Below are positions 3,281 through 58,738 of a stretch of DNA of 58,989 nucleotides, piece by piece. The stretch covers positions 1-58,989 of the forward strand of contig VGSJ01000009.1 in assembly GCA_016875015.1 (NCBI GenBank). Reading direction: 5' to 3'. The notes beneath the pieces were generated by a model. The model searched no databases. It was not told the DNA's origin and saw nothing but the letters and a program-made list of their open reading frames with translations. The stretch comes from Deltaproteobacteria bacterium. Its GTDB lineage: Bacteria > Desulfobacterota > Desulfobaccia > Desulfobaccales > 0-14-0-80-60-11. The stretch's first letter is position 1, and every line of letters begins with the position of its first letter. A program made the position numbers and the translations under genes.

Positions 3281-6200
3281 TTGCTGAACGAGATGGGATG
3301 GGGGCAAGAGCGGATGGCATTATTTGAGTCTGTCGAAGCTGTGCTTAAGAATTATGCCCAAGAAGTAACCGCTAAATTTGCCTTTCCTATAGAGGTTAAT
3401 CCGGAGGACCAACTTAAGACCCCTATCGATGCCCTCCTTAAAGGTATCGGCGCCGCCATAGGTCTTGCACTCGGGGTCGTAACGGAAGTACATACAGATC
3501 AACTCGGGCGCCCCGATATGGGCATTGCGGTCAATGGACTTCTGGCCGGCCACGTGGAGCTGAAGGCCCCCGGCAAGGGCGCCAACCCGGAAAAGCTGAA
3601 GGGCGGCGACCGGGAGCAGTGGGAGCGCTTTAAGAATCTCCCCAACCTCATCTACACCGACGGCAACGACTGGGCCTTGTATCGCAGCGGCCAACTCGAA
3701 GGGAAAATGGTGCGGCTGGCCGGCGACGTCTCCACTGCCGGCCCGGACGCCATCGGTCCTGCCGACGCCGAGGCCATCCTGGCGTTGATGCAAGACTTTC
3801 TCCGCTGGGAGCCCATTGTCCCCTCGTCACCCTCCGCCCTGGCCAAAATGCTGGCCCCCCTCTGCCGCCTGCTGCGCGCCGATGTCCTGACCGCCCTCCA
3901 AAATCATGAGTCAAATCTATCTCTTTTGGCCGCGGATTGGCGCAAGTACCTCTTCCCGGACGCCGACGATTTCCAGTTCGCCGACGCCTATGCCCAGACC
4001 CTCACCTACGCCCTCTTGCTGGCCCGGCTCTCCGGCGAAGGCGCGGGCCTCTCCATCCCCCAGGCCGCGGCCGCCATCCGCACCGGCCATCGCCTGCTGG
4101 CCGACGCCCTGGGCATCCTCGGCGACCCCAAGGCCCGGGAGGAGATTGAGACCCCGGTGTCGGTGCTGGAAAGGGTGATCGGCGCGGTGGACCCTGCGGC
4201 CCTCACCAAGAAGGCCAAGGGCGACCCCTGGCTCTATTTCTACGAGGACTTTCTGGCCGCGTATGACCCGAAAATGCGCCGGGACCGGGGAGTGTACTAC
4301 ACCCCGGTGGAGGTCGTCCAGGCCCAGGTGAAACTCGTGGCCCAGTTGCTGGAAGAGCGCTTCGACGCCGACTATGCCTTTGTGAACGACAAGGTCATCA
4401 CCCTGGACCCCGGGGCCGGCACCGGCACCTATATCCTGGCCGCCCTGCAACACGGCCTCAACCGGGTGGAGCAGGAAAAAGGCTCCGGCATGCGGGCCAA
4501 TTTCGCCACCCAGGCCGCCCGAAACCTTCACGCCTTTGAGTTGTTGGTGGGCCCCTATGCCGTGGCGCATTTGCGGCTCACCCAGCAAATCCTGGCCGAG
4601 GGCGGTGAGATGCCCCCGGACGGCGTCCACGTCTATCTCACCGACACCCTGGAATCCCCCCGCCAGCCCCCGCCCGCGTACCCGATGCTCTATAAGGAAC
4701 TGGGGGAGGAATACAAACGGGCCCAAAAGGTCAAGGCCGACGCGCCGGTGCTGGTGGTGCTGGGCAATCCACCCTATGACCGTCAGCAGATTGAGGCGGC
4801 GGAGGCGGGACTGGTCAGGCGCAAGGGCGGCTGGGTGCGCTTCGGCGACGGCGGCCAGGAAGGCGAGAGCATTTTCAAGAGCTTCCTCAAACCCCTGGAG
4901 GCCCTGGGCTGGGGGGTGCACGCCAAGAACCTCTACAACGATTACGTCTATTTCTGGCGCTGGGCCTTGTGGAAGGTCTTTGAGAACCAGGGCGGCCCCG
5001 GCATCGTCAGCTTCATCACCGCCGCCTCCTACCTCCGGGGGCCGGGCTTCGCGGGCATGAGACAGGTGATGCGGGAGACCTTTGACGATCTGTGGATCAT
5101 CGACCTGGAAGGCGACAACCTGGGGGCGAGGAAAACTGAGAACGTCTTCGCCATCCAGACCCCGGTGGCCGTCGCGGTGGGGGTGCGCTACGGCGATCCC
5201 CAGCCGGACACCCCCGCGGCGGTGCGCTACACCCGGGTCAGCGGGACCCAGGCGGAAAAACTCAACACCCTGGCCCAGGTGAGCCGGTTTGCCGACCTGC
5301 CCTGGCGGGACTGCCTCCCCGGCTGGACTGACCTTTTCCTGCCCACCGGCGATAAGCCTTACTGGAATTGGCCGCTTCTGAATGACCTCTTTCCGTGGCA
5401 AGAAAACGGCGTTCAGTTCAAGCGCACCTGGCCTATTGGGGAGACACCGGAGGTGATAAGAAGGCGCTGGGATGCACTAATCCAAGAACCTCCTGAAAAG
5501 CGAGGGCCATTATTGCGGGAAACCGAAGCTCGCAACATTGCGAAGGCCTTTACCGATCCCATTTCGGGCAAGCAATTATCCTCATTGAGCAAACTGAAAC
5601 CCGGAGAACCAGCGGCGGAGCCGGTTCGCTATGCTTACCGGAGTTTTGACCGTCAATGGACCTTTCTGGATATCCGTCTCTGTGACCGCCCCAGGCCGAA
5701 TCTGCTGAGAGCCCACAGCGGCCACCAGGTATATCTCACCAGTCTCCTTACCGATGTTTTGGGCGAAGGGCCGGCCGCGGTAGCCGCGGCGTACATCCCG
5801 GACTTGCATCATTTTCGAGGCTCATTCGGTGGCGCTCATGTTATCCCTCTTTGGCGGGATTCCGAAGCCACGGAGCCCAACGTCACCGCCGGAGTGCTGG
5901 CGGCCCTGGCCCGGGCGTATGGCCAGCCTGTGACCGCGGCAGACCTCTTCGCCTATTGCTACGCTGTCCTATGTTCGCCGGATTATGTGCACCGCTTTTG
6001 GGACGAACTGACCATCCCCGGCCCCCGCCTCCCCCTCACCCGGGACGCGGAGCGGTTCGCCCGCGCCGCCGACCTGGGCCGCCGCCTCCTGTGGCTGCAC
6101 ACTTATGGCGAACGATTTATACCGCCGGGGCACAAGCCCGGCAGAATCCCTCCGGGCCAAGCCAGGTGCCTGAAAGGAACCCCGGCCGTCCCGGAAAAAT

Positions 6201-6577
6201 ATCCTGAAAAATTTTTCTACGATCTGGCCGGACAACAATTGCGCGTGGGGGAGGGGGTCTTCGGGCCGGTGCGCCCGGAGGTGTGGGAATTCAGCGTTTC
6301 CGGCCTTAAGGCGCTCCAATCCTGGCTGGCTTATCGGATGAAACAGGGGGCCGGTAAAAAGTCCTCGCCCCTGGATAAGATCAGACCTGCCGCCTGGCAG
6401 TTTGACGAGGAACTGCTGGACCTCTTATGGGTGTTGGAACACACGGTGGACCTGTGGCCTTCCTTAGCCCAGGCCCTCAATGACATTTTAGCCGGCGACC
6501 AATTCGCTGCCTCAGACTTCCCCGAGCCCAGGCCCGAAGAAAGAGGGGCAAAAGGGCATTTACCCCTCCTGGATTAA
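3281..6577 (+). CDS. Single-chain type IIG-like restriction-modification enzyme (nuclease + N6-adenine methylase + target recognition)
   Basis: 1098 residues from a TTG at 3281; ATGs at 3293 and 3314 are alternative starts and 3314 may be the true one. The N-terminus carries a PD-(D/E)xK nuclease signature: P78-D79, then E93-L-K95 in strand context. A gamma-type adenine methylase follows, with SAM motif I LDPGAGTGTYIL (375-386) and catalytic NPPY (496-499). The C-terminal ~450 residues would hold target recognition. Such enzymes both methylate and cut DNA. The order resembles type ISP enzymes without their helicase domain. No separate R, M or S gene lies beside it. It sits on the 3' side of a tRNA gene, a usual place for acquired islands. 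Confidence 0.85.
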   Translation: MLNEMGWGQERMALFESVEAVLKNYAQEVTAKFAFPIEVNPEDQLKTPIDALLKGIGAAIGLALGVVTEVHTDQLGRPDMGIAVNGLLAGHVELKAPGKGANPEKLKGGDREQWERFKNLPNLIYTDGNDWALYRSGQLEGKMVRLAGDVSTAGPDAIGPADAEAILALMQDFLRWEPIVPSSPSALAKMLAPLCRLLRADVLTALQNHESNLSLLAADWRKYLFPDADDFQFADAYAQTLTYALLLARLSGEGAGLSIPQAAAAIRTGHRLLADALGILGDPKAREEIETPVSVLERVIGAVDPAALTKKAKGDPWLYFYEDFLAAYDPKMRRDRGVYYTPVEVVQAQVKLVAQLLEERFDADYAFVNDKVITLDPGAGTGTYILAALQHGLNRVEQEKGSGMRANFATQAARNLHAFELLVGPYAVAHLRLTQQILAEGGEMPPDGVHVYLTDTLESPRQPPPAYPMLYKELGEEYKRAQKVKADAPVLVVLGNPPYDRQQIEAAEAGLVRRKGGWVRFGDGGQEGESIFKSFLKPLEALGWGVHAKNLYNDYVYFWRWALWKVFENQGGPGIVSFITAASYLRGPGFAGMRQVMRETFDDLWIIDLEGDNLGARKTENVFAIQTPVAVAVGVRYGDPQPDTPAAVRYTRVSGTQAEKLNTLAQVSRFADLPWRDCLPGWTDLFLPTGDKPYWNWPLLNDLFPWQENGVQFKRTWPIGETPEVIRRRWDALIQEPPEKRGPLLRETEARNIAKAFTDPISGKQLSSLSKLKPGEPAAEPVRYAYRSFDRQWTFLDIRLCDRPRPNLLRAHSGHQVYLTSLLTDVLGEGPAAVAAAYIPDLHHFRGSFGGAHVIPLWRDSEATEPNVTAGVLAALARAYGQPVTAADLFAYCYAVLCSPDYVHRFWDELTIPGPRLPLTRDAERFARAADLGRRLLWLHTYGERFIPPGHKPGRIPPGQARCLKGTPAVPEKYPEKFFYDLAGQQLRVGEGVFGPVRPEVWEFSVSGLKALQSWLAYRMKQGAGKKSSPLDKIRPAAWQFDEELLDLLWVLEHTVDLWPSLAQALNDILAGDQFAASDFPEPRPEERGAKGHLPLLD

Positions 6578-11508: not shown

Positions 11509-13641
11509 CTATTGGCCTTTGAGTTCGTAACGCTTGATGAATTGGCGGAGGGCATCTTTCTGCGGTTTGCTTAGCCATTCGCTCTCCGAAAGGGTACGGG
11601 TCCGCTCCAGAATGATTCCCGGATCCAGAAAGGGCGTCAGGCCTTTTTGGTTCAGGCGGTATCGGGGACTGCCGTCCCCCTGGATCATAGAGTGACTAAA
11701 GTCCTTTTCCATAAATTTTTCCAGCAGAAGAGCTAAGTTGTGGTCGTCGCGCCCCATTTGGCCAACCCAGGTTATGGGTTCAGCGTCCCCTGCCAGGGTT
11801 TTCCAAAGCGCTAAGATTTCCGGCAGGCTGGGGCACTTGAGGAGGGACTCGTCAGTGGCCGCGTTCCGTATTTTTGAGAGCACCAAACCTTCCAGGCTGA
11901 CCAGATCGCTATGACGGATCAGGGTTTCCGGCTTCTGGCGCTCCTCGCCGGCCTGCTTGTTGCTGAGTTTGCCCAACTCCATGACGATCTTGGCGCTGAT
12001 AAAAACTGCCCTCCCCTGGGTGATGGCTTGCCGCAGGGCGTCAAAGCGGCGGTCCCACGGCAGGCGCCGCAGCAGTTGCAAGATTATCCGGGCTACGCGC
12101 TGGTCGTTGCCGATGGGAAGCTTACCCGAGCTCTCGTCTTCGGACCGGATAAACTGATCGCCCACATCAAACAGACTGAGGAAAATCGACGGGATGGACT
12201 CCTCGGCAATCTCCTTGCCGGTATAATCCGTCACCCGGTCCAGAAAAGCATGGAGACGGGTGAAGCCGTCGGGGCGAGTCTGGCCTGCCAGTTCCAGCAG
12301 ACGGGCCGAAAATTCCTGGGGGTTGTCGGCCAGGGATAAAATAACCATGATTTCGGCATTGGAGATGTCTCCCTGGGGCAGCGCCAGATGGAAAAATATT
12401 GGAAAGATATCCGGACTGCAGATGCGGAGTTGCTTGCGCCAGGTGGCCTCATTGGGGGGGTCGTACCCGAGGTCCCCCCACATTTCTCCCAACTTGGGAA
12501 AGAGTTGCGACAGCAGTCCCCGGACCGCTTCCCGATTTTCCTCCGCGATCTGGCTGACCCAGGATTCCTGAAAGGTCCGCAGTTGGTCGATCTTATTGGA
12601 CACCCATTCCCGGCCGGTGAATTTTTCCGGATAAGTCCGGATCATGTTATAAGCCTCGGGACAGAAGATGCGCAGGGTCTCGATCCCGATAAAATCCACG
12701 GGGTTCACTTCACCCTGGACGGCCGGGTAGGTGACGCTCAGCGTATTGGTCAGCAAATTGATCTTCCGGGGGGTGCTGATGAAATGTTCAATCCCCCTCA
12801 TAAAGACATTGCCCCAATAGGTTTGGTCGAAAAGTCCTTCTGGTGTGCCCGCCATGATGTTTTCCAGCCTGGCAAAGAGTAAACGGGACAATGAAGACCG
12901 GTCGGGCAAGGGCAGTTCAAAGGGGAACTGGACAATTTTTTCCAGGTAGCTTTCCCCGGAGATACCCTGGGATTCTCGCAAGGCTTCGATCACCACTTTT
13001 TTGTCGAAGGTGAGGAGATAAACGACGTTGGGGAAATCGGCCACGGATTTGATCACCCCGAAGAGCTGCCGGATCTCTTCCGGATTCAGGCGGTCGATGT
13101 CGTCCACGGTGACGAAAATCCGCCGGGGTTGCTTTCGGAGCTCCTCGGCAATTTCCATTTTCAGTTTGATGACGTTTTTAACGGAAGATTTCAGGGGGGT
13201 AAACTCCACCGCAATTTTGCCGATGGCAATGTAAGGAATGTGGATGCTCGCGGGCAACTCCGACACCATATCGGCAAACTCGGCGATTTTTCCCTGCAAA
13301 AGGGTCAGGTCAACATCGCTGGTGGCCAGTGAGGCTTGTAGTTGGTCAAAGAAATGCTTGGCCAGTTTTTCGTGCCCGGAAAACCACCAGGGGTTGAAGG
13401 GCACGATGATGGGTTGCTCATCCACGGGGGCTTCTTTAAAGTAATGGAACAAAAAATTCAACAGCGTGGTCTTGCCCGAGCCCCAGGGGCCATATATGGC
13501 CACCACAAATCCCTCGGCCGGCACCATTCTGGTTAAGGAGAAGGCCAGATGCCTGGCGAAGAGGGCATAACCCAGCTGGTCCTCTTGCGGCTCTATCAGA
13601 GGTTTATCGGCCGAGAGCGTGCAATAATGCTTTTTGGACAA
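11509..13641 (-). CDS. KAP-family P-loop NTPase
   Basis: 710 residues from a TTG start; the next in-frame Met (39) would cut into the fold. Walker A is GPWGSGKTT (51-59) and Walker B is RIFVTVDDIDRL (174-185), followed by the typical NPEEIRQLFGVIK. PFNPWWFSG (81-89) is another KAP hallmark. The remaining ~400 residues are helical and unassigned; the membrane helices that many KAP proteins insert between Walker A and B are not evident. Family members include PifA, the F-plasmid phage-exclusion protein, so a defence role is possible but not shown. It stands alone, upstream of the mucR-like gene in the same direction, 285 bases apart. Confidence 0.85.
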   Translation of the reverse strand: MSKKHYCTLSADKPLIEPQEDQLGYALFARHLAFSLTRMVPAEGFVVAIYGPWGSGKTTLLNFLFHYFKEAPVDEQPIIVPFNPWWFSGHEKLAKHFFDQLQASLATSDVDLTLLQGKIAEFADMVSELPASIHIPYIAIGKIAVEFTPLKSSVKNVIKLKMEIAEELRKQPRRIFVTVDDIDRLNPEEIRQLFGVIKSVADFPNVVYLLTFDKKVVIEALRESQGISGESYLEKIVQFPFELPLPDRSSLSRLLFARLENIMAGTPEGLFDQTYWGNVFMRGIEHFISTPRKINLLTNTLSVTYPAVQGEVNPVDFIGIETLRIFCPEAYNMIRTYPEKFTGREWVSNKIDQLRTFQESWVSQIAEENREAVRGLLSQLFPKLGEMWGDLGYDPPNEATWRKQLRICSPDIFPIFFHLALPQGDISNAEIMVILSLADNPQEFSARLLELAGQTRPDGFTRLHAFLDRVTDYTGKEIAEESIPSIFLSLFDVGDQFIRSEDESSGKLPIGNDQRVARIILQLLRRLPWDRRFDALRQAITQGRAVFISAKIVMELGKLSNKQAGEERQKPETLIRHSDLVSLEGLVLSKIRNAATDESLLKCPSLPEILALWKTLAGDAEPITWVGQMGRDDHNLALLLEKFMEKDFSHSMIQGDGSPRYRLNQKGLTPFLDPGIILERTRTLSESEWLSKPQKDALRQFIKRYELKGQ

Positions 13642-52417: not shown

Positions 52418-52431
52418 AATTGGCGCCAATT
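52418..52431. promoter_or_regulatory. Perfect 14-bp palindrome, putative operator
   Basis: AATTGGCGCCAATT is its own reverse complement. It lies 9 bases before the sigma54-like promoter; the TTGGC half-site recurs at 52439. It may bind a regulator of the CoA-transferase operon. Confidence 0.5.
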
Positions 52432-52439
52432 GCACTAGT

Positions 52440-52455
52440 TGGCACAGATTTAGCT
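52440..52455 (+). promoter_or_regulatory. Putative sigma54 (-24/-12) promoter
   Basis: TGGCACAGATTTAGCT matches the sigma54 consensus TGGCACG-N4-TTGCW with the obligatory GG and GC ten bases apart and two mismatches. The transcript would begin near 52466 and carry the hairpin leader before the first CoA-transferase gene. Confidence 0.55.
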
Positions 52456-52499
52456 AATGATAGTTCAGGGTAAACACGAATTTAAGGGACTTCCATAGC

Positions 52500-52527
52500 C
52501 TGGCTCCTTCGGGTGAGCCAGATTTTT
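52500..52527 (+). terminator. Leader hairpin with U-run, possible attenuator
   Basis: CTGGCTC (52500-52506) and GAGCCAG (52515-52521) form a 7-bp stem with an 8-base loop, followed by ATTTTT. It lies between the predicted transcription start and the first gene, so it could attenuate the operon or terminate read-through from further left. Confidence 0.5.
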
Positions 52528-52567
52528 CGCGAAAGGAGGTGGCTGCCGTTCAACCGCGGAAGGCTGG

Positions 52568-52589
52568 ACTTGAGCGGACTCAAGTTTTC
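52568..52589 (+). promoter_or_regulatory. Second leader stem-loop
   Basis: ACTTGAG (52568-52574) and CTCAAGT (52579-52585) with loop CGGA are followed by TTTCC. Together with the hairpin at 52500 it gives the 5' leader two structured elements; no known riboswitch class was recognised. Confidence 0.4.
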
Positions 52590-52633
52590 CTAAGGTAGAA
52601 TTCCGAATCAACGGTAATAAAGGAGGATTCTGA

Positions 52634-54064
52634 ATGTCCGAAGATCTTAAAAAAGAGATTTTAGAAGCACCGTTACTGTGGCCTCTAAACCCAATTCCCA
52701 CTTTTGAAGAAGTCTATGACCCGAAAATCTGCACAGAAGCGTCTCGGGAAATCTCCACCATCTTTGAGGGGTGGCTGCATCCCAAGCACGAGATGGCCAA
52801 GCCTGAGGCCTTGGCCAAAATCCGGGTCCTGGAGTGCGGCCACGGCGGCTTGCAGTGCAACGCCATGCAGGGGGGCGGCTACTTATCCGAGCTAGGGGCC
52901 AACGTCATCATGGTGGAACCCCCGGGAGGGTCTCCCATCCGGAAGCTGGCGGCCTTCGGGCGCAAGCGCTACATGTTCAAAGACAACGTCAACGGCGATC
53001 TGTGCGGCGGCACTTTCCTGCACGAATGCCGTAACAAGCAGTCCATCACCCTGGACCTGACCAAGGAAGAAGGCCGGGCCGTTCTGAAGAAGCTGGTTGT
53101 CCACGCGGATGTGCTCGTGGAAAACTATGCCCCCGGGCAGTTCGACGAATGGGGCATCGGTTACCGCCAGCTTTCCAAGATCAACCCCCGCCTGGTTTAT
53201 GTCTGGAACGGACAGAAAGGCCAGTGGGGCCCTCTGAAGGACCAACCCGGGGAACTTTATCCGTCCTCGCCCTGTGCCAACGGCTGGTGCCATGCCACCG
53301 GGCTGCCCAAGAGCTTCGGGGGCACCCCCCTGCGGGCCGGCGAGCGGGCCGACGATATTCTGGCCGGCAACCTGACGGCCCACAGCACCATCGCCGCCCT
53401 GATCTTCCGGGAAACCTCCGGGAAAGGCCAGTTCATCGAAGTCACCTCAGCGGAGGCCCACGCACGCATCCATGACTATGCCTGGGGTTGGTACGGCATG
53501 GACGGGTCCTCCAAACCCCGCTACGGCAACTGGGACCTGGCCATCAACATCTACTCGGTTAACCCCTGCAAAGACGGCTACATGATGGTGGGCGGCGGCC
53601 ATGACCGGCTGTGGTACCGCATCTGGAAGACTGTGGGCAAAGACCGCCCCGAGCTGGAAGACATGATCCTGGACGAGCCCACCCTGCGGGTGGTCATCGA
53701 CCGGGTCGGCCACGACCAGCAGACCAAGACCTGCACCATCCTCACCGACTGGATGAAGGACTGGACCCGGGAAGAGTGCCGGGCCAAGTTGCTGGCGGAA
53801 GAAGTGGCCGCGGGCGGCGTCTCCTTCATCGACGAAGTTTCGGAAGAGCCCCACTTCAAATACCGGGGCATGGTGCGGTCCATCGACACGTCGCATTACG
53901 GCAAGGTGCTGTTCTGCGGCTCCGTGTTCTACAGCCACCGGACTCCGGGCCGGGTCAAAAACCTGGGCCGTCCCGTGGGCTACGACAACAGCGATGTCTA
54001 TCGCAAATTCTGCAACTTCGACACCGCCAAGCTGAATGAGCTTTACGGCAAAGGGCTCATCTAA
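52634..54064 (+). CDS. Class III CoA-transferase (CaiB/BaiF family), first subunit
   Basis: 476 residues with AAAGGAGG before the ATG. IRVLECGHGGLQCNAMQGGGYLSELGANVIMVEPPGG is the family opening, HECRNKQSITLDLTKEEGRAVLKKLVVHADVLVENYAPGQFDEWGIG the central signature. An Asp pair at about 240 (RADDILAGNL) sits where the catalytic aspartate of formyl-CoA transferase aligns. It is about 70 residues longer than the usual 400. It should exchange CoA between two carboxylic acids. Paired with the next gene, 18 bases away, as in heteromeric benzylsuccinate CoA-transferases (BbsEF); the substrate is not known. Confidence 0.88.
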   Translation: MSEDLKKEILEAPLLWPLNPIPTFEEVYDPKICTEASREISTIFEGWLHPKHEMAKPEALAKIRVLECGHGGLQCNAMQGGGYLSELGANVIMVEPPGGSPIRKLAAFGRKRYMFKDNVNGDLCGGTFLHECRNKQSITLDLTKEEGRAVLKKLVVHADVLVENYAPGQFDEWGIGYRQLSKINPRLVYVWNGQKGQWGPLKDQPGELYPSSPCANGWCHATGLPKSFGGTPLRAGERADDILAGNLTAHSTIAALIFRETSGKGQFIEVTSAEAHARIHDYAWGWYGMDGSSKPRYGNWDLAINIYSVNPCKDGYMMVGGGHDRLWYRIWKTVGKDRPELEDMILDEPTLRVVIDRVGHDQQTKTCTILTDWMKDWTREECRAKLLAEEVAAGGVSFIDEVSEEPHFKYRGMVRSIDTSHYGKVLFCGSVFYSHRTPGRVKNLGRPVGYDNSDVYRKFCNFDTAKLNELYGKGLI

Positions 54065-54082
54065 TAAAGGGGGTTAGGAAAT

Positions 54083-55444
54083 ATGACCGAACACCTGGAT
54101 AAACTACCCTTTGAGGATTATTGCAAGACTATCTTCAATAAGGACGCGCTTTTTGATAAACCCGAGTCCCTGAATGGGTATCGGGTGCTGTCCTGCACCC
54201 AGTACATCCTGGGCCCCTGCGCCGCCGCTTACTTAGGTGAACTGGGCGCCGAGGTCATCAAGATCGAGGTCCCCCGTTTGGGTGAGCCCATGCGTCACTG
54301 CTCGCCTTACAATGAAACCTGGTTCTATCCCGTGTCCCGGTGGAACCCGGGCCGCGGCACATCGCCGGCTTTCCAGGGCGCCAACCACAACGAATACTTC
54401 ATTACCATGGACTACCGCAAGCCGGAAGCCAAGGAAATCTTCTACAACCTGGTGCAGAAAACCGACGCCATGGTGTGGAACTACCGGCCCGGCACCTTCG
54501 ACCGCTGGAAGATCGGCTACGGCGCCTGCAAAGAGGTCAACCCCCGCATCGTTCTGGCTTGGTGCGGCGGTTTCGGCGGCTTCGGCCCCGGCCGGAACTG
54601 GGCGTCCTACGACATCCTGGGGCAGGCCAAAGGCGGCGTGTTCTCCTTCACCGGCCACCGGGCCGGAAGGGCCAGCGCCGGCTTCCCCAGCAAACACACC
54701 ACCTGGATCATGGACTACTCCATCGGCATGCTGGTCTCCACCGCCATGCTGGCCGGCCTCTACTGGCGGGACACGGTCTCTGGCGTGGGCAACTACTTCG
54801 AGTGCTCCCAGGTGCAAGGCTCCACCCGCTACACCGAATACGCCCTGCCCCTGTGGGGCCGCAGCGGCGTCGTGCGGATGCGCTGGGGCAACTGGGACAC
54901 GGAAATCTGCGTCAACGGCATCTGCGCCTGCGGCCTGACTTCCTATCCCCATTCGGACCATCCGGCGGAGCAGGAAGAGGGCTACATCTGCGTCCAGGCC
55001 TATACGGACGAGGACTTCGCCAACCTGATGAACCTCATCGGCCGCCCCGACCTGGGCAAAAAGTACGCCACCCACGACGATCGCGTCGAGGCCCTGGCCC
55101 AGGAAGAGATCTATCCGGCCATTGAGGACTTCCTGAAAGACAAGACCAAGGAAGAGGCCAACCGCATCTTCTCCATCGCCGGGATCATCTCCCAGCCCCT
55201 GCTCACCATCATGGAAGCCGCCAACTGCGACCACTGGCTGGAGCGGGGCGCCCTGGGCTGGTACGATGACCCCTACTACGGCGATGTCTTCACTCAGAAG
55301 GTCATGTACAAGATGAGCGAGTCCCCGCCGCGGCTGAAACACGTGCACCGGCCGGTGGGCTGCGATAATGAAGAAATCTACCAGCGGGTTATCGGTCTCA
55401 GCGCGGACCAGATCCGGGAAATGGAAGCCAAAGAGATCATCTAA
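54083..55444 (+). CDS. Class III CoA-transferase (CaiB/BaiF family), second subunit
   Basis: 453 residues, AAAGGGGG upstream. GYRVLSCTQYILGPCAAAYLGELGAEVIKIEVPRLGEPMR opens the fold, AMVWNYRPGTFDRWKIGYGACKEVNPRIVLAWCGGFGGFGPGRNW is the central signature, and Asp211 in TWIMDYSIGMLV is the candidate catalytic residue. The C-terminal part (TDEDFANLMNLIGRPDLGKKY) is typical of the family. Both paralogues keep an Asp at the expected place, so either or both could be active. Confidence 0.88.
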   Translation: MTEHLDKLPFEDYCKTIFNKDALFDKPESLNGYRVLSCTQYILGPCAAAYLGELGAEVIKIEVPRLGEPMRHCSPYNETWFYPVSRWNPGRGTSPAFQGANHNEYFITMDYRKPEAKEIFYNLVQKTDAMVWNYRPGTFDRWKIGYGACKEVNPRIVLAWCGGFGGFGPGRNWASYDILGQAKGGVFSFTGHRAGRASAGFPSKHTTWIMDYSIGMLVSTAMLAGLYWRDTVSGVGNYFECSQVQGSTRYTEYALPLWGRSGVVRMRWGNWDTEICVNGICACGLTSYPHSDHPAEQEEGYICVQAYTDEDFANLMNLIGRPDLGKKYATHDDRVEALAQEEIYPAIEDFLKDKTKEEANRIFSIAGIISQPLLTIMEAANCDHWLERGALGWYDDPYYGDVFTQKVMYKMSESPPRLKHVHRPVGCDNEEIYQRVIGLSADQIREMEAKEII

Positions 55445-55522
55445 CCGGAACGCGGGGGGCCGGGTTAGCGTGCCGGCCTGCCTTTGCTACACCTCTATCC
55501 ATTACGGGAGGATTGACTCGAT

Positions 55523-55936
55523 ATGACTGAATTCAAAATATCGTTGATGTATGATTGTCCGAAATGCAAGGCCCGGAATTTCCTGGACCCTTACAGCTAT
55601 TGGGACTACAAGGGCAACTTCAAATGCAGCGGCTGTGATGTCCTCTACTATGCCGAGTGGGAAAACGGCCAGCGAGTCGTGGACCCGGAAGCCCCCAAGG
55701 GCACGGACTTCATCCTGCCGGGCTACGCCGAGACCGAAGACCTGAAGCCCCTGTCCGGGCCAGGCAAGACCTCGGCCCCGCCCTTTGCCAGCGCCACCTT
55801 CTTGGGCAAGCCCAAGAATTGCACCGTGTCGGTTCGGGGTAAACTCGTCGCCTGCACCCAGCTTACTCCGGAAGACCTGGACGGGAGCGCTTGGAAACGC
55901 ATCACGGCCCAGCGCACGTACGGGAAATCCTGGTAG
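55523..55936 (+). CDS. Small four-Cys zinc-ribbon-like protein, possibly BssB-type
   Basis: 137 residues with GGGAGG before the ATG. C12xxC15 and C35xxC38 flank the short strand region DPYSYWDYKGNFKCSGCDVLYYAEWENGQRV. The arrangement recalls the beta subunit of benzylsuccinate synthase-type enzymes, a small iron-sulphur protein, but it is longer; the last ~70 residues (about 70-137) have no recognised domain. It follows the two CoA-transferase genes. Alternatively a simple zinc ribbon that assists the transferases. Confidence 0.65.
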   Translation: MTEFKISLMYDCPKCKARNFLDPYSYWDYKGNFKCSGCDVLYYAEWENGQRVVDPEAPKGTDFILPGYAETEDLKPLSGPGKTSAPPFASATFLGKPKNCTVSVRGKLVACTQLTPEDLDGSAWKRITAQRTYGKSW

Positions 55937-55974
55937 TCGCTGCGTAACTACGGAAGATAGGAGGAATCCTCAAT

Positions 55975-56163
55975 ATGGCGATTCTCTGTGACGATTGCAA
56001 GTCCTTCAAATACACCTACGACCCGCAGATCGACAAAGTATTGTTCGGGCACTGCCGGGCCATTGAATATCCTTTCATGCTGGGCGTTTTCAAGGAAGCG
56101 CGGCCAGGGGCGTTTACCGCTCCCAAAGACTGCAAGTTCTTCCAAGAAAAGAAGAAAAAGTAG
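55975..56163 (+). CDS. 62-residue four-Cys protein, possibly BssC-type
   Basis: AGGAGG lies before the ATG. The cysteines are C5, C8, C27 and C53 (LCDDCKSF; GHCRAIEY; PKDCKFF), a size and spacing resembling the gamma subunit of benzylsuccinate synthase-like glycyl-radical enzymes, which binds one [4Fe-4S] cluster. The tail is lysine-rich. No glycyl-radical alpha subunit or activating enzyme is found in the window, so its partner is unknown. Followed by a terminator-like stem. Confidence 0.62.
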   Translation: MAILCDDCKSFKYTYDPQIDKVLFGHCRAIEYPFMLGVFKEARPGAFTAPKDCKFFQEKKKK

Positions 56164-56184
56164 GATAGACTAACTATCTAACCG

Positions 56185-56207
56185 GGGGCGTCGCCTGGCG
56201 GCGCCCC
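56185..56207 (+). terminator. GC-rich stem-loop ending the CoA-transferase operon
   Basis: GGGGCGTCGCC and GGCGGCGCCCC pair over 11 positions with one G-U, around a very short loop, then TATCTTTTATCT. It separates the CoA-transferase group from the small genes that follow. Confidence 0.6.
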
Positions 56208-56236
56208 TATCTTTTATCTGGACTCCTGAGACTTAT

Positions 56237-56554
56237 ATGAAAGACTACTCGCTCTATTATTGCGACCGGCGCCTGGATGAAGCCGAGGTGGTGGAACTCC
56301 TGAAGCTGGCCTGGGATGAACTCTACGAGCTGGAGTTTGACGCGGTCTTCGGGACCTGGCGGGGGGCGCACTTTGAGCCGGAAACGGACACGGTGCACAT
56401 CACCTGGGAAACCATGTATGCCGGTCCGCCCCTGATGATCTCCATTCACCGGGTCACCCGGGCCATCAGGATGGACTATCCCCGGGATGAATTTGTTGAG
56501 ATCGAACAGGTCGAAATCGAGCGCATCCGCAGCCTGCCGCCGAAGAAGAGATAA
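56237..56554 (+). CDS. 105-residue acidic protein of unknown function
   Basis: Alpha-beta composition with many aromatic and acidic residues (KDYSLYYCDRRLDEAEVVELLKLAWDELY; HITWETMYAGPPLMISIHRVTR). No motif I recognise. No strong ribosome-binding site. It lies after the terminator-like stem, in the same direction as its neighbours; its link to the CoA-transferases is uncertain. Confidence 0.55.
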   Translation: MKDYSLYYCDRRLDEAEVVELLKLAWDELYELEFDAVFGTWRGAHFEPETDTVHITWETMYAGPPLMISIHRVTRAIRMDYPRDEFVEIEQVEIERIRSLPPKKR

Positions 56555-56655: not shown

Positions 56656-56865
56656 ATGTCTATTGACGGTTATATTGATTATCAACGCCGGGAATTTTGT
56701 AAGGATGTGCAATGTCCGGTACAGATGGACCTGGATGGCCAACAACCGGGCTCGGATGCTTATGAAAAGATAAGACAGGCTTGTCAGACAAATTGTAGAT
56801 ATACCACGTATCAATTTCACCATTGGTTGATCAATAAAGGTTATTTGCTGGTCCGGCCTGGATAA
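56656..56865 (+). CDS. 69-residue four-Cys protein of unknown function
   Basis: AGGAGAGG precedes the ATG. Cysteines C15, C20, C43 and C47 (EFCKDVQCPVQ; ACQTNCRYTTYQFHHW) are spaced in two pairs with an acidic linker; HH near the end could also bind metal. The ending FHHWLINKGYLLVRPG is aromatic and basic. Not a recognised family; probably a metal- or iron-sulphur-binding small protein. It is 49 bases upstream of the aldolase start. Confidence 0.6.
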   Translation: MSIDGYIDYQRREFCKDVQCPVQMDLDGQQPGSDAYEKIRQACQTNCRYTTYQFHHWLINKGYLLVRPG

Positions 56866-56914
56866 TATTTTTTTGAATGATGGTAATAATGCTCAAGGGA
56901 TAGGAGATATACGC

Positions 56915-57721
56915 ATGGATTGGGGAATGAAAAATCGCTTAAGCCAACTTATGCCCAATGGCAAATGTTTTTTTATGCCGATTGATCATGGTTATTTTCA
57001 AGGGCCGACCCGGAATCTGGAGAAGCCGGGAGAGACCGTAAAACCGCTTCTGCCTTACGCGGATGCGATCTTTGTCACCCGAGGGGTATTGCGGGCGGCG
57101 CTAGACCCCATAACCAGTAAACCGATTGTCCTGCGAGTCTCCGGATGTACCAGCATGGTGGGCAAGGATTTGGCGAATGAGGAACTCACCACCTCGATTG
57201 CCGAAATTATCCGCTTGAACGCCTCGGCCGTGGGGCTCTCGGTCTTTATCGGCAGTGAATATGAAAAGGAGACCCTCAAGAACCTGGCCACTCTGGTCAA
57301 TGCGTGCGAGGATTATGGCATCCCGGTGATGGCGGTTACCGCGGTCGGCAGGGAATTGGACCAACGGGAGGCCCGTTATCTGAAATTATGCTGTCGCATC
57401 GCCGCGGAACTGGGCGCCAGGGTGGTGAAGACGTATTGGTGTGAAGAACATTTTGATCAAGTCGTGAACGGCTGTCCGGTGCCGGTCATTATGGCCGGTG
57501 GACCCAAGTGTGAGACCGAACTGGAAGTGCTGGAATTTGTGCATGATGGTATCCAGAAGGGAGCCGTAGGGATCAATTTAGGCCGAAATGTCTGGCAGAG
57601 CGCTCATCCGGTGGCCATGGCGAAAGCCTTAAGGGCCATCGTCCATGACAATGTTTCCGTCAAGCAGGCTCACGATATCCTCAAGCAGACCAAAGAAGAT
57701 AAGCCGAAAGCGAAACCTTAA
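56915..57721 (+). CDS. DhnA/LsrF-type class I aldolase
   Basis: 268 residues from the ATG at 56915, with GGAGAT upstream; a TTG 14 codons earlier is possible. FMPIDHGYFQGPT holds the conserved Asp-His, VVKTYW (Lys172) the Schiff-base lysine, and PVIMAGGPK the phosphate-binding strand. Members include LsrF (thiolase acting on phospho-AI-2), archaeal-type fructose-bisphosphate aldolase and ADH synthase; which applies is not clear. No lsrK, lsrR or lsr transporter is nearby. It is followed after 39 bases by a zinc dehydrogenase. Confidence 0.83.
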   Translation: MDWGMKNRLSQLMPNGKCFFMPIDHGYFQGPTRNLEKPGETVKPLLPYADAIFVTRGVLRAALDPITSKPIVLRVSGCTSMVGKDLANEELTTSIAEIIRLNASAVGLSVFIGSEYEKETLKNLATLVNACEDYGIPVMAVTAVGRELDQREARYLKLCCRIAAELGARVVKTYWCEEHFDQVVNGCPVPVIMAGGPKCETELEVLEFVHDGIQKGAVGINLGRNVWQSAHPVAMAKALRAIVHDNVSVKQAHDILKQTKEDKPKAKP

Positions 57722-57760: not shown

Positions 57761-58738
57761 ATGCTGGTCGCGAAATACTACAACAATAACGATATCCGCC
57801 TGGAGGAATTTTCCATCCCGAAGATCGGGCCGGGGGAGATTCTGGTAAGGGTCCGGGCCAGCGGTATCTGCGGCACCGATGTGATGGAATGGTACCGGAT
57901 TCAGAAGGCTCCCCGGATTTTGGGCCATGAGATCGCCGGCGAGATCGTTGAGTCGAAATCAGATAACTACCGAACCGGCCAGAGAGTGTTCGTCAGCCAT
58001 CATGTGCCGTGTAATACGTGCGCATATTGTCGGGAAGATAATCATACGGCCTGCGATACCTTGCATTCAGGCAACTATGATCCCGGCGGCTACAGTGAAT
58101 TTGTCCGGGTCCCCAAGATTAATGTGGATTATGGGGTGTATGTCTTGCCGGATCAGGTTTCCTATGCCGAAGGCACCATGATCGAGCCGCTGGCCTGCGG
58201 GGTAAGAGGACTCGGGCTGATTGATATCCGGGCCAACCACACCGTTTTGATCCTGGGCTGCGGGGTCTCCGGCATCCTGAATATTCAGCTGGCCAAGTTA
58301 ACCGGCGCCCGGGTGGTGGCCACCGAGATGAATGAGTATCGCTTGCAGAAAGCTCAAGAGTTCGGCGCCGACCAGGTGATACATGCGGCTCAAGACCTTA
58401 ATATCAGGGCGGATCGGGTCATCATCTGCACCGGCGCCTATGCCGCGGTGGAGCAAGCGTTCCGTTGCGTAGACAAGAAGGGAATTATCCTCCTCTTTGC
58501 CATCCCCAACCGGGATATCGCCATCCCCATCCCGGACTTTTGGCGCAATGAACTTACGGTGACCTCATCCTACGGCGCCGCCCCGGTCGATTTAGAGGCC
58601 GCGCTGGAACTCATTGCCAATCAGACCATCAATGTCAAAGACACCATAACCCAGACCCTGCCTTTATCCCAAATCCAAGCAGCTTTCAAAATTGTCGCCG
58701 AGGCCAAGGAATCTTTAAAGGTGGTGTTGGAGCCTTAG
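57761..58738 (+). CDS. Zinc-dependent alcohol dehydrogenase, medium-chain
   Basis: 325 residues. Catalytic zinc ligands C in SGICGTD and H-E in LGHEIAGE; the structural zinc loop CNTCAYCREDNHTACD has four cysteines; VLILGCGVSGILNIQLAKLTGARVVATE is the NAD-binding Rossmann motif. Length and motifs fit the sorbitol/threonine-dehydrogenase group. With the aldolase before it, it may form a sugar or polyol breakdown pair. A 7-base A-tract repeat remnant precedes its start. Confidence 0.9.
   Translation: MLVAKYYNNNDIRLEEFSIPKIGPGEILVRVRASGICGTDVMEWYRIQKAPRILGHEIAGEIVESKSDNYRTGQRVFVSHHVPCNTCAYCREDNHTACDTLHSGNYDPGGYSEFVRVPKINVDYGVYVLPDQVSYAEGTMIEPLACGVRGLGLIDIRANHTVLILGCGVSGILNIQLAKLTGARVVATEMNEYRLQKAQEFGADQVIHAAQDLNIRADRVIICTGAYAAVEQAFRCVDKKGIILLFAIPNRDIAIPIPDFWRNELTVTSSYGAAPVDLEAALELIANQTINVKDTITQTLPLSQIQAAFKIVAEAKESLKVVLEP

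Follow-up and report, generated by a model that had tools for sequence, protein, structure and literature searches.

Paralogous class III CoA-transferases encoded in one operon with two small cysteine-rich proteins in Desulfobacterota

Introduction

What is the role of an operon that joins two class III CoA-transferases to two small cysteine-rich proteins, and does such an operon belong to a fumarate-addition pathway? We address this question for a locus in a window of 58,989 nucleotides (the whole stretch of DNA analysed here), which corresponds to contig C9 in a genome (G000) of 3.1 Mb and 99.96% completeness from the order Desulfobaccales. Enzymes of class III are not known to carry cofactors, and those described are simple homodimers or heterodimers. 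An earlier note on this DNA had described two CoA-transferases of unusual length followed by two four-cysteine proteins that recall the BssB and BssC subunits of benzylsuccinate synthase (BSS), with no glycyl-radical enzyme beside them. It offered two readings of the set, either as an accessory module of a hydrocarbon or aromatic pathway encoded elsewhere, or as a novel complex of CoA-transferases that brings small iron-sulphur or zinc proteins of its own.

Results

The four genes lie in a row on the + strand, and all four open reading frames were confirmed. The genes for CoA1 (52634..54064, 476 aa) and CoA2 (54083..55444, 453 aa), both class III CoA-transferase subunits, are followed by those for S137 (55523..55936, 137 aa), a zinc-ribbon- or rubredoxin-like small protein according to its predicted model, and S62 (55975..56163, 62 aa), a four-cysteine protein that is a candidate HiPIP-like or zinc small subunit. 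The earlier observation of two class III CoA-transferases and two small proteins is thus confirmed. A sigma-54 (-24/-12) promoter (TGGCACAGATTTAGCT, 52440..52455, + strand), which reads TGGCAC-N5-TAGCT, is located 194 nt upstream of the CoA1 start; when the 59-kb window was scanned with a relaxed sigma-54 pattern, this was the sole match. Its core is identical and found in the same place in each of the eight relatives whose sequence extends upstream, while the surrounding DNA is variable. At the other end of the set, an intrinsic terminator (56184..56213, + strand) consists of a GGGGGCGTCGCC-TGGC-GGCGCCCC hairpin and then TATCTTTT; a GC-rich hairpin and a T-rich tract are present directly 3' of S62 in 11 of 11 relatives, and the variants of the stem still pair. 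Since the conserved sigma-54 site and the conserved terminator frame CoA1, CoA2, S137 and S62, these genes form one transcription unit of exactly four genes, and the description of the locus as a sigma54-type operon holds.

A 5' leader of ~168 nt (52466..52633, + strand; its start was placed from the -12 element) precedes CoA1. Alignments of 8-9 relatives (window positions 52490-52633) revealed two conserved blocks, GAAAGGRGGTGR and GCGGAC; also kept is a stretch, TTTCC, that could pair with the Shine-Dalgarno sequence. Folding scores are weak, and neither a known riboswitch nor any other Rfam family matches the leader. It is possible that the leader acts as a cis-regulatory RNA or as a protein site.

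Both transferases match the class III CoA-transferase family PF02515 (CoA1, 240.6 bits, E 3.7e-71; CoA2, 256.7 bits, E 4.9e-76; cut-off 23.3) over nearly the entire profile (positions 1-359 and 1-360, respectively, of 366), and they are the only two class III CoA-transferases in the source genome. They had been described as 60-70 residues longer than usual, which, with E. coli YfdE, Frc and CaiB (381-416 aa) as a yardstick, is a fair estimate for CoA1 and too high for CoA2. The extra length is mainly N-terminal, the first residue of the Pfam domain being 60 in CoA1 and 30 in CoA2. The two proteins share 29% identity and fall into two sister clades (support 100/100 and 100/99). In this tree, which includes few outgroups, with long branches, the two clades together lie apart from E. 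coli Frc, YfdE and CaiB and from the BbsE and BbsF proteins that a genuine bss-bbs cluster (L101) encodes. In the column of Frc Asp169, CoA1 carries D241 (Asp in 19 of 21 homologues) and CoA2 carries D211 (Asp in 48 of 48). Judged from their sequences, CoA1 and CoA2 are ancient paralogues, each retaining the predicted catalytic Asp.

The column of Frc Glu140 is occupied by Tyr209 in CoA1 of the window clade and by Asp or Glu elsewhere. This hints at an asymmetry between CoA1 and CoA2, and because of the tyrosine at this position CoA1 of the window clade may be the less active partner. Asp177 of CoA2 (in 'YDILGQ') had been considered as the catalytic residue, lost in CoA1 as Tyr209, and was rejected since its column maps to Frc Glu140. 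The idea of one dead subunit, as in BbsEF, was also dropped because the mapping onto Frc places an equivalent of Asp169 in both proteins.

S137 contains six cysteines, four of which (C12, C15, C35 and C38) lie in a CxxC-x19-CxxC ribbon, a predicted zinc ribbon, and are invariant or nearly so in a family of 45. The predicted model is confident over residues 11-80, which roughly make up the ribbon (pLDDT 86-96 in blocks of ten), and of low confidence in the C-terminal tail, which ends in helices. This protein matches no curated family in Pfam or NCBIfam and no PDB sequence, and its model has no significant fold match in the PDB. The absence of a Pfam or NCBIfam match, together with a CxxC-x19-CxxC ribbon in place of C-x2-C-xn-C-xn-C, contradicts the proposed likeness of S137 to BssB.

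S62, for which the earlier count of four cysteines is exact (it is not for S137), has the layout C-x2-C-x18-C-x25-C (C5, C8, C27 and C53), invariant in 32 homologues, and likewise matches no curated family (Pfam, NCBIfam) and no PDB sequence. Its AlphaFold model is of moderate confidence (pLDDT 68). When this model was compared with 350,542 PDB chains using Foldseek, three hits were obtained, the top one being the BSS gamma subunit (9pzj_C) over the full length; at this model confidence the match is not significant (E 4.9, prob 0.06, TM 0.40-0.44). The BssC family PF08201 gave no match to S62 at E up to 1, nor up to 10, the hhalign probability against BSS and MASS gamma profiles was 10-35%, and comparisons with BssC HMMs in both directions (438 ORF decoys, 2,080 shuffles) scored at shuffle level. 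S62 was rejected as a proven BssC homologue, its HMM scores being no better than those of shuffles. In the same sequence tests BssB and BssC likewise miss each other, although both are HiPIP-like (PMC12358834), and because of this, sequence neither proves nor excludes kinship between S62 and BssC. For S62 the notion of a Bss-like small subunit is not groundless, given its four-cysteine layout and a top fold hit that is not significant; the lack of a profile match speaks against it.

Among 297 genomes of the phylum Desulfobacterota, CoA2 (E at most 1e-60) and S137 (E below 1e-6) occur in identical sets of 30 genomes, representing 21 genera and nine families, and their genes are adjacent in all 30. 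An S62-like four-cysteine ORF adjoins S137 in the window-clade loci that have sequence there, in seven of seven loci of type A (see below) and in all loci of type B inspected. That CoA2 and S137 co-occur without exception, and that S62-like proteins adjoin them in every locus inspected, favours the second of the two readings offered earlier, that of a new CoA-transferase complex with small iron-sulphur or zinc proteins. Searches of plasmids and of the literature returned nothing closer to the four-gene set.

The set was found in three types. The window type, the only one carried by the source genome, is restricted to Desulfobaccales. Type A, found in seven genomes (L061-L067), additionally includes proteins of 68, ~490 and 124 aa and an AMP-forming acyl-CoA ligase; its ~490-aa and 124-aa proteins have no match in Pfam or NCBIfam. 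Type B occurs in most of the Desulfobaccales searched and also beyond this order, with extra proteins of ~95 and ~145 aa and a metallo-beta-lactamase/TPR protein at the end of the cluster (e.g., L071:7417-9472). The S62 proteins of the three types are linked by sequence, as an HMM built from the window type and type A finds type B (5.6e-5). In five of the type B loci examined, a PAS/sigma-54 activator gene is a direct neighbour, confirmed by Pfam in one of them. The idea that sigma-54 also controls types A and B was rejected, a strong site being present only in one type B locus (L073). A type B set is also present, at about 0.6 Mb, in Desulfobacca acetoxidans DSM 11109 (G024), which is described as an oxidiser of acetate by the CODH pathway that does not use propionate, butyrate or lactate, which were among the donors tested (PMC3156406).

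In one type A genome (G201, L063:10181-10840) the S62-like frame is open through into the region of the neighbouring 124-aa protein; this is a possible fusion of the two, which suggests contact between these proteins. Examples of the ~490-aa and 124-aa proteins and of the 68-aa protein, which is DUF4177-like, are encoded at L064:2737-4215, L064:4222-4425 and L064:8313-8684. In several genomes the type A clusters lie beside genes for complex I or ATP synthase, and the ~95-aa and ~145-aa proteins of type B are without a known family. A more distant pair of CoA-transferases (~445 and 475 aa), 32-35% identical to CoA2, was observed at L109, L110, L111, L112, L113 and L114; it is present in some set-bearing genomes and has no S137- or S62-like neighbour.

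Discussion

We consider it probable that the product of the operon is a heteromeric CoA-transferase of class III in which S137 is a rubredoxin/zinc-ribbon subunit and S62 a small iron-sulphur or zinc subunit. CoA1 and CoA2 would be joined in one hetero-oligomeric complex and would exchange CoA between two carboxylates in a ping-pong reaction via an acyl-aspartate, while S137 and S62 would be metal-carrying subunits, bound to it stoichiometrically, with a part in its stability, its assembly or its redox gating. The accessory role proposed for these two proteins is modelled on the HiPIP-like and rubredoxin-like subunits of fumarate-adding glycyl-radical enzymes; alternatively, both could act as regulators or as metallochaperones without being subunits at all. 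Since type B occurs in a described acetate oxidiser, a small acid of central anaerobic metabolism is a likelier substrate than a hydrocarbon-derived one.

A rival reading takes S137 and S62 as subunits of the BssB/BssC type and CoA1 and CoA2 as transferases of the BbsEF type in a hydrocarbon pathway, with the catalytic subunit for fumarate addition encoded elsewhere. In agreement with this reading, S62 shares the pattern C-x2-C-xn-G-x-C-xn-C-x2-[FY] with BssC and has BSS gamma as its top, albeit non-significant, full-length fold match, and the adjacent pair of class III CoA-transferase genes recalls bbsEF. However, neither a PFL-like (glycyl-radical enzyme) domain nor BssC (PF08201) was found anywhere in the nearly complete source genome, and no glycyl-radical gene was seen beside the set in any locus inspected. 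BssC scores above its cut-off in 15 of the 297 genomes and in none of the 30 that bear the set; an overlap of zero is expected by chance with P about 0.19, and points to independence rather than avoidance. Furthermore, the textbook bss-bbs cluster of another Desulfobacterota genome (L101, G313:C4:1-20000; activase, bssC, bssA, bssB and bbsA-G), which served as a positive control, looks quite unlike the set. Its bbsE and bbsF are also two adjacent paralogous genes of the same fold family, but their products are ~410 aa long, are only 21-24% identical to CoA1 and CoA2, which lie outside them in the tree, and keep the catalytic Asp in one protein (D178) with Tyr174 in the other, whereas CoA1 and CoA2 both keep it; the bbs cluster also lacks S137 and S62. 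We regard a part in fumarate addition as very improbable. The reading as an accessory module of a hydrocarbon or aromatic pathway is largely refuted, as profile searches do not assign S137 or S62 to BssB or BssC and the neighbourhoods inspected in relatives are without a glycyl-radical enzyme, and with it a false lead to hydrocarbon metabolism in Desulfobaccales is removed.

The transferases might instead serve to activate acetate, in place of acetyl-CoA synthetase and acetate kinase, in those Desulfobaccales that oxidise it, such as D. acetoxidans (PMC3156406). Consistent with this, AcsA (threshold E 1e-100) is present in none of ten set-bearing genomes and acetate kinase in one of them. Against it, all ten genomes have several matches each to the alpha model of ADP-forming acetyl-CoA synthetase, mostly under the curated cut-off, AMP-forming ligases are also present, and when acetate is oxidised by the CODH route, succinyl-CoA is not regenerated to act as donor. 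Because ADP-forming synthetase-like proteins are found in all ten genomes, we do not favour acetate activation as the main role; it is possible, and quite unlikely. A different role could be read from the genes past the terminator, which are all on the + strand: S105 (56237..56554, 105 aa; same order in 10 of 10 relatives with downstream sequence), S69 (56656..56865, 69 aa; in eight of these ten), a DhnA/LsrF-like class I aldolase (56873..57721) and a zinc-dependent, threonine-dehydrogenase-like alcohol dehydrogenase (57761..58738; PF08240 and PF00107). In such a pathway the dehydrogenase and the thiolytic aldolase would turn a hydroxyketone into an acyl-CoA, and CoA1 and CoA2 would hand the CoA to another acid. 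The aldolase scores above the cut-off of its LsrF-type family (3-hydroxy-5-phosphonooxypentane-2,4-dione thiolase, NF006081; 351.4 bits, cut-off 297), and in the relatives S105, the aldolase and the dehydrogenase come after the set, the positions of the latter two being conserved. Nevertheless, the conserved terminator divides the set from the aldolase and dehydrogenase group and rules out a shared transcription unit, and since types A and B have no adjoining DhnA and alcohol dehydrogenase, this explanation, which we find unlikely, would fit the window clade at most.

The heteromeric transferase with two bound metalloproteins, which we prefer, has partial parallels among known systems. The BSS gamma (TutF/BssC, PF08201) and MASS gamma (MasC) subunits resemble S62 in their size (~60 aa) and in a C-x2-C-xn-C-xn-C layout with closely similar spacing; their HiPIP-like fold carries a [4Fe-4S] cluster (PMC12358834). 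They differ from S62 in that no significant sequence or profile link connects them, and in that their partner is a glycyl-radical enzyme while that of S62 would be a CoA-transferase. The rubredoxin-like MASS delta subunit (MasE) is, like S137, a small CxxC...CxxC protein, and accompanies a HiPIP-like partner as S137 would accompany S62, but there is no profile similarity between the two (hhalign probability 1.4%), and S137 is longer, has a C-terminal tail and lacks a PDB fold match. The closest parallel in the literature, compared here by its description, is the 'Magic' benzene cluster of Ca. Anaerobenzenivorax, also of the Desulfobacterota, in which two adjacent type III CoA-transferases precede an uncharacterised protein and an AMP-binding enzyme is also encoded (PMC13101534). 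In addition, that cluster has genes for FAD oxidoreductases, MaoC proteins and an Fe-S protein; nothing of this kind adjoins the set in the window.

The fold family of CoA1 and CoA2 is already known, and their pairing with two dedicated small cysteine proteins was not found in the literature searched. That a paralogous pair is inherited together with a zinc-ribbon protein and a four-cysteine protein across nine families of Desulfobacterota suggests metal-dependent assembly or redox control, and gives two unnamed families of small proteins a testable home. A bolder proposal is a metalloprotein-gated CoA-transferase, in which HiPIP-like iron-sulphur and rubredoxin-like subunits would place the flow of acyl-CoA under redox or oxygen control; we found no precedent for this in the literature and hold it to be rather doubtful.

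Several observations lie outside this argument. Four Desulfobaccales genomes (G000, G024, G022 and G013), that of D. acetoxidans included, have no AcsA (E 1e-100), no acetate kinase and several ADP-forming synthetase-like proteins. Elsewhere in the window, positions 3293-6577 encode a protein of 1094 aa that contains the specificity domain of Type ISP restriction-modification systems (PF18135), and positions 11509-13641 encode a 710-aa KAP-family P-loop NTPase (PF07693).
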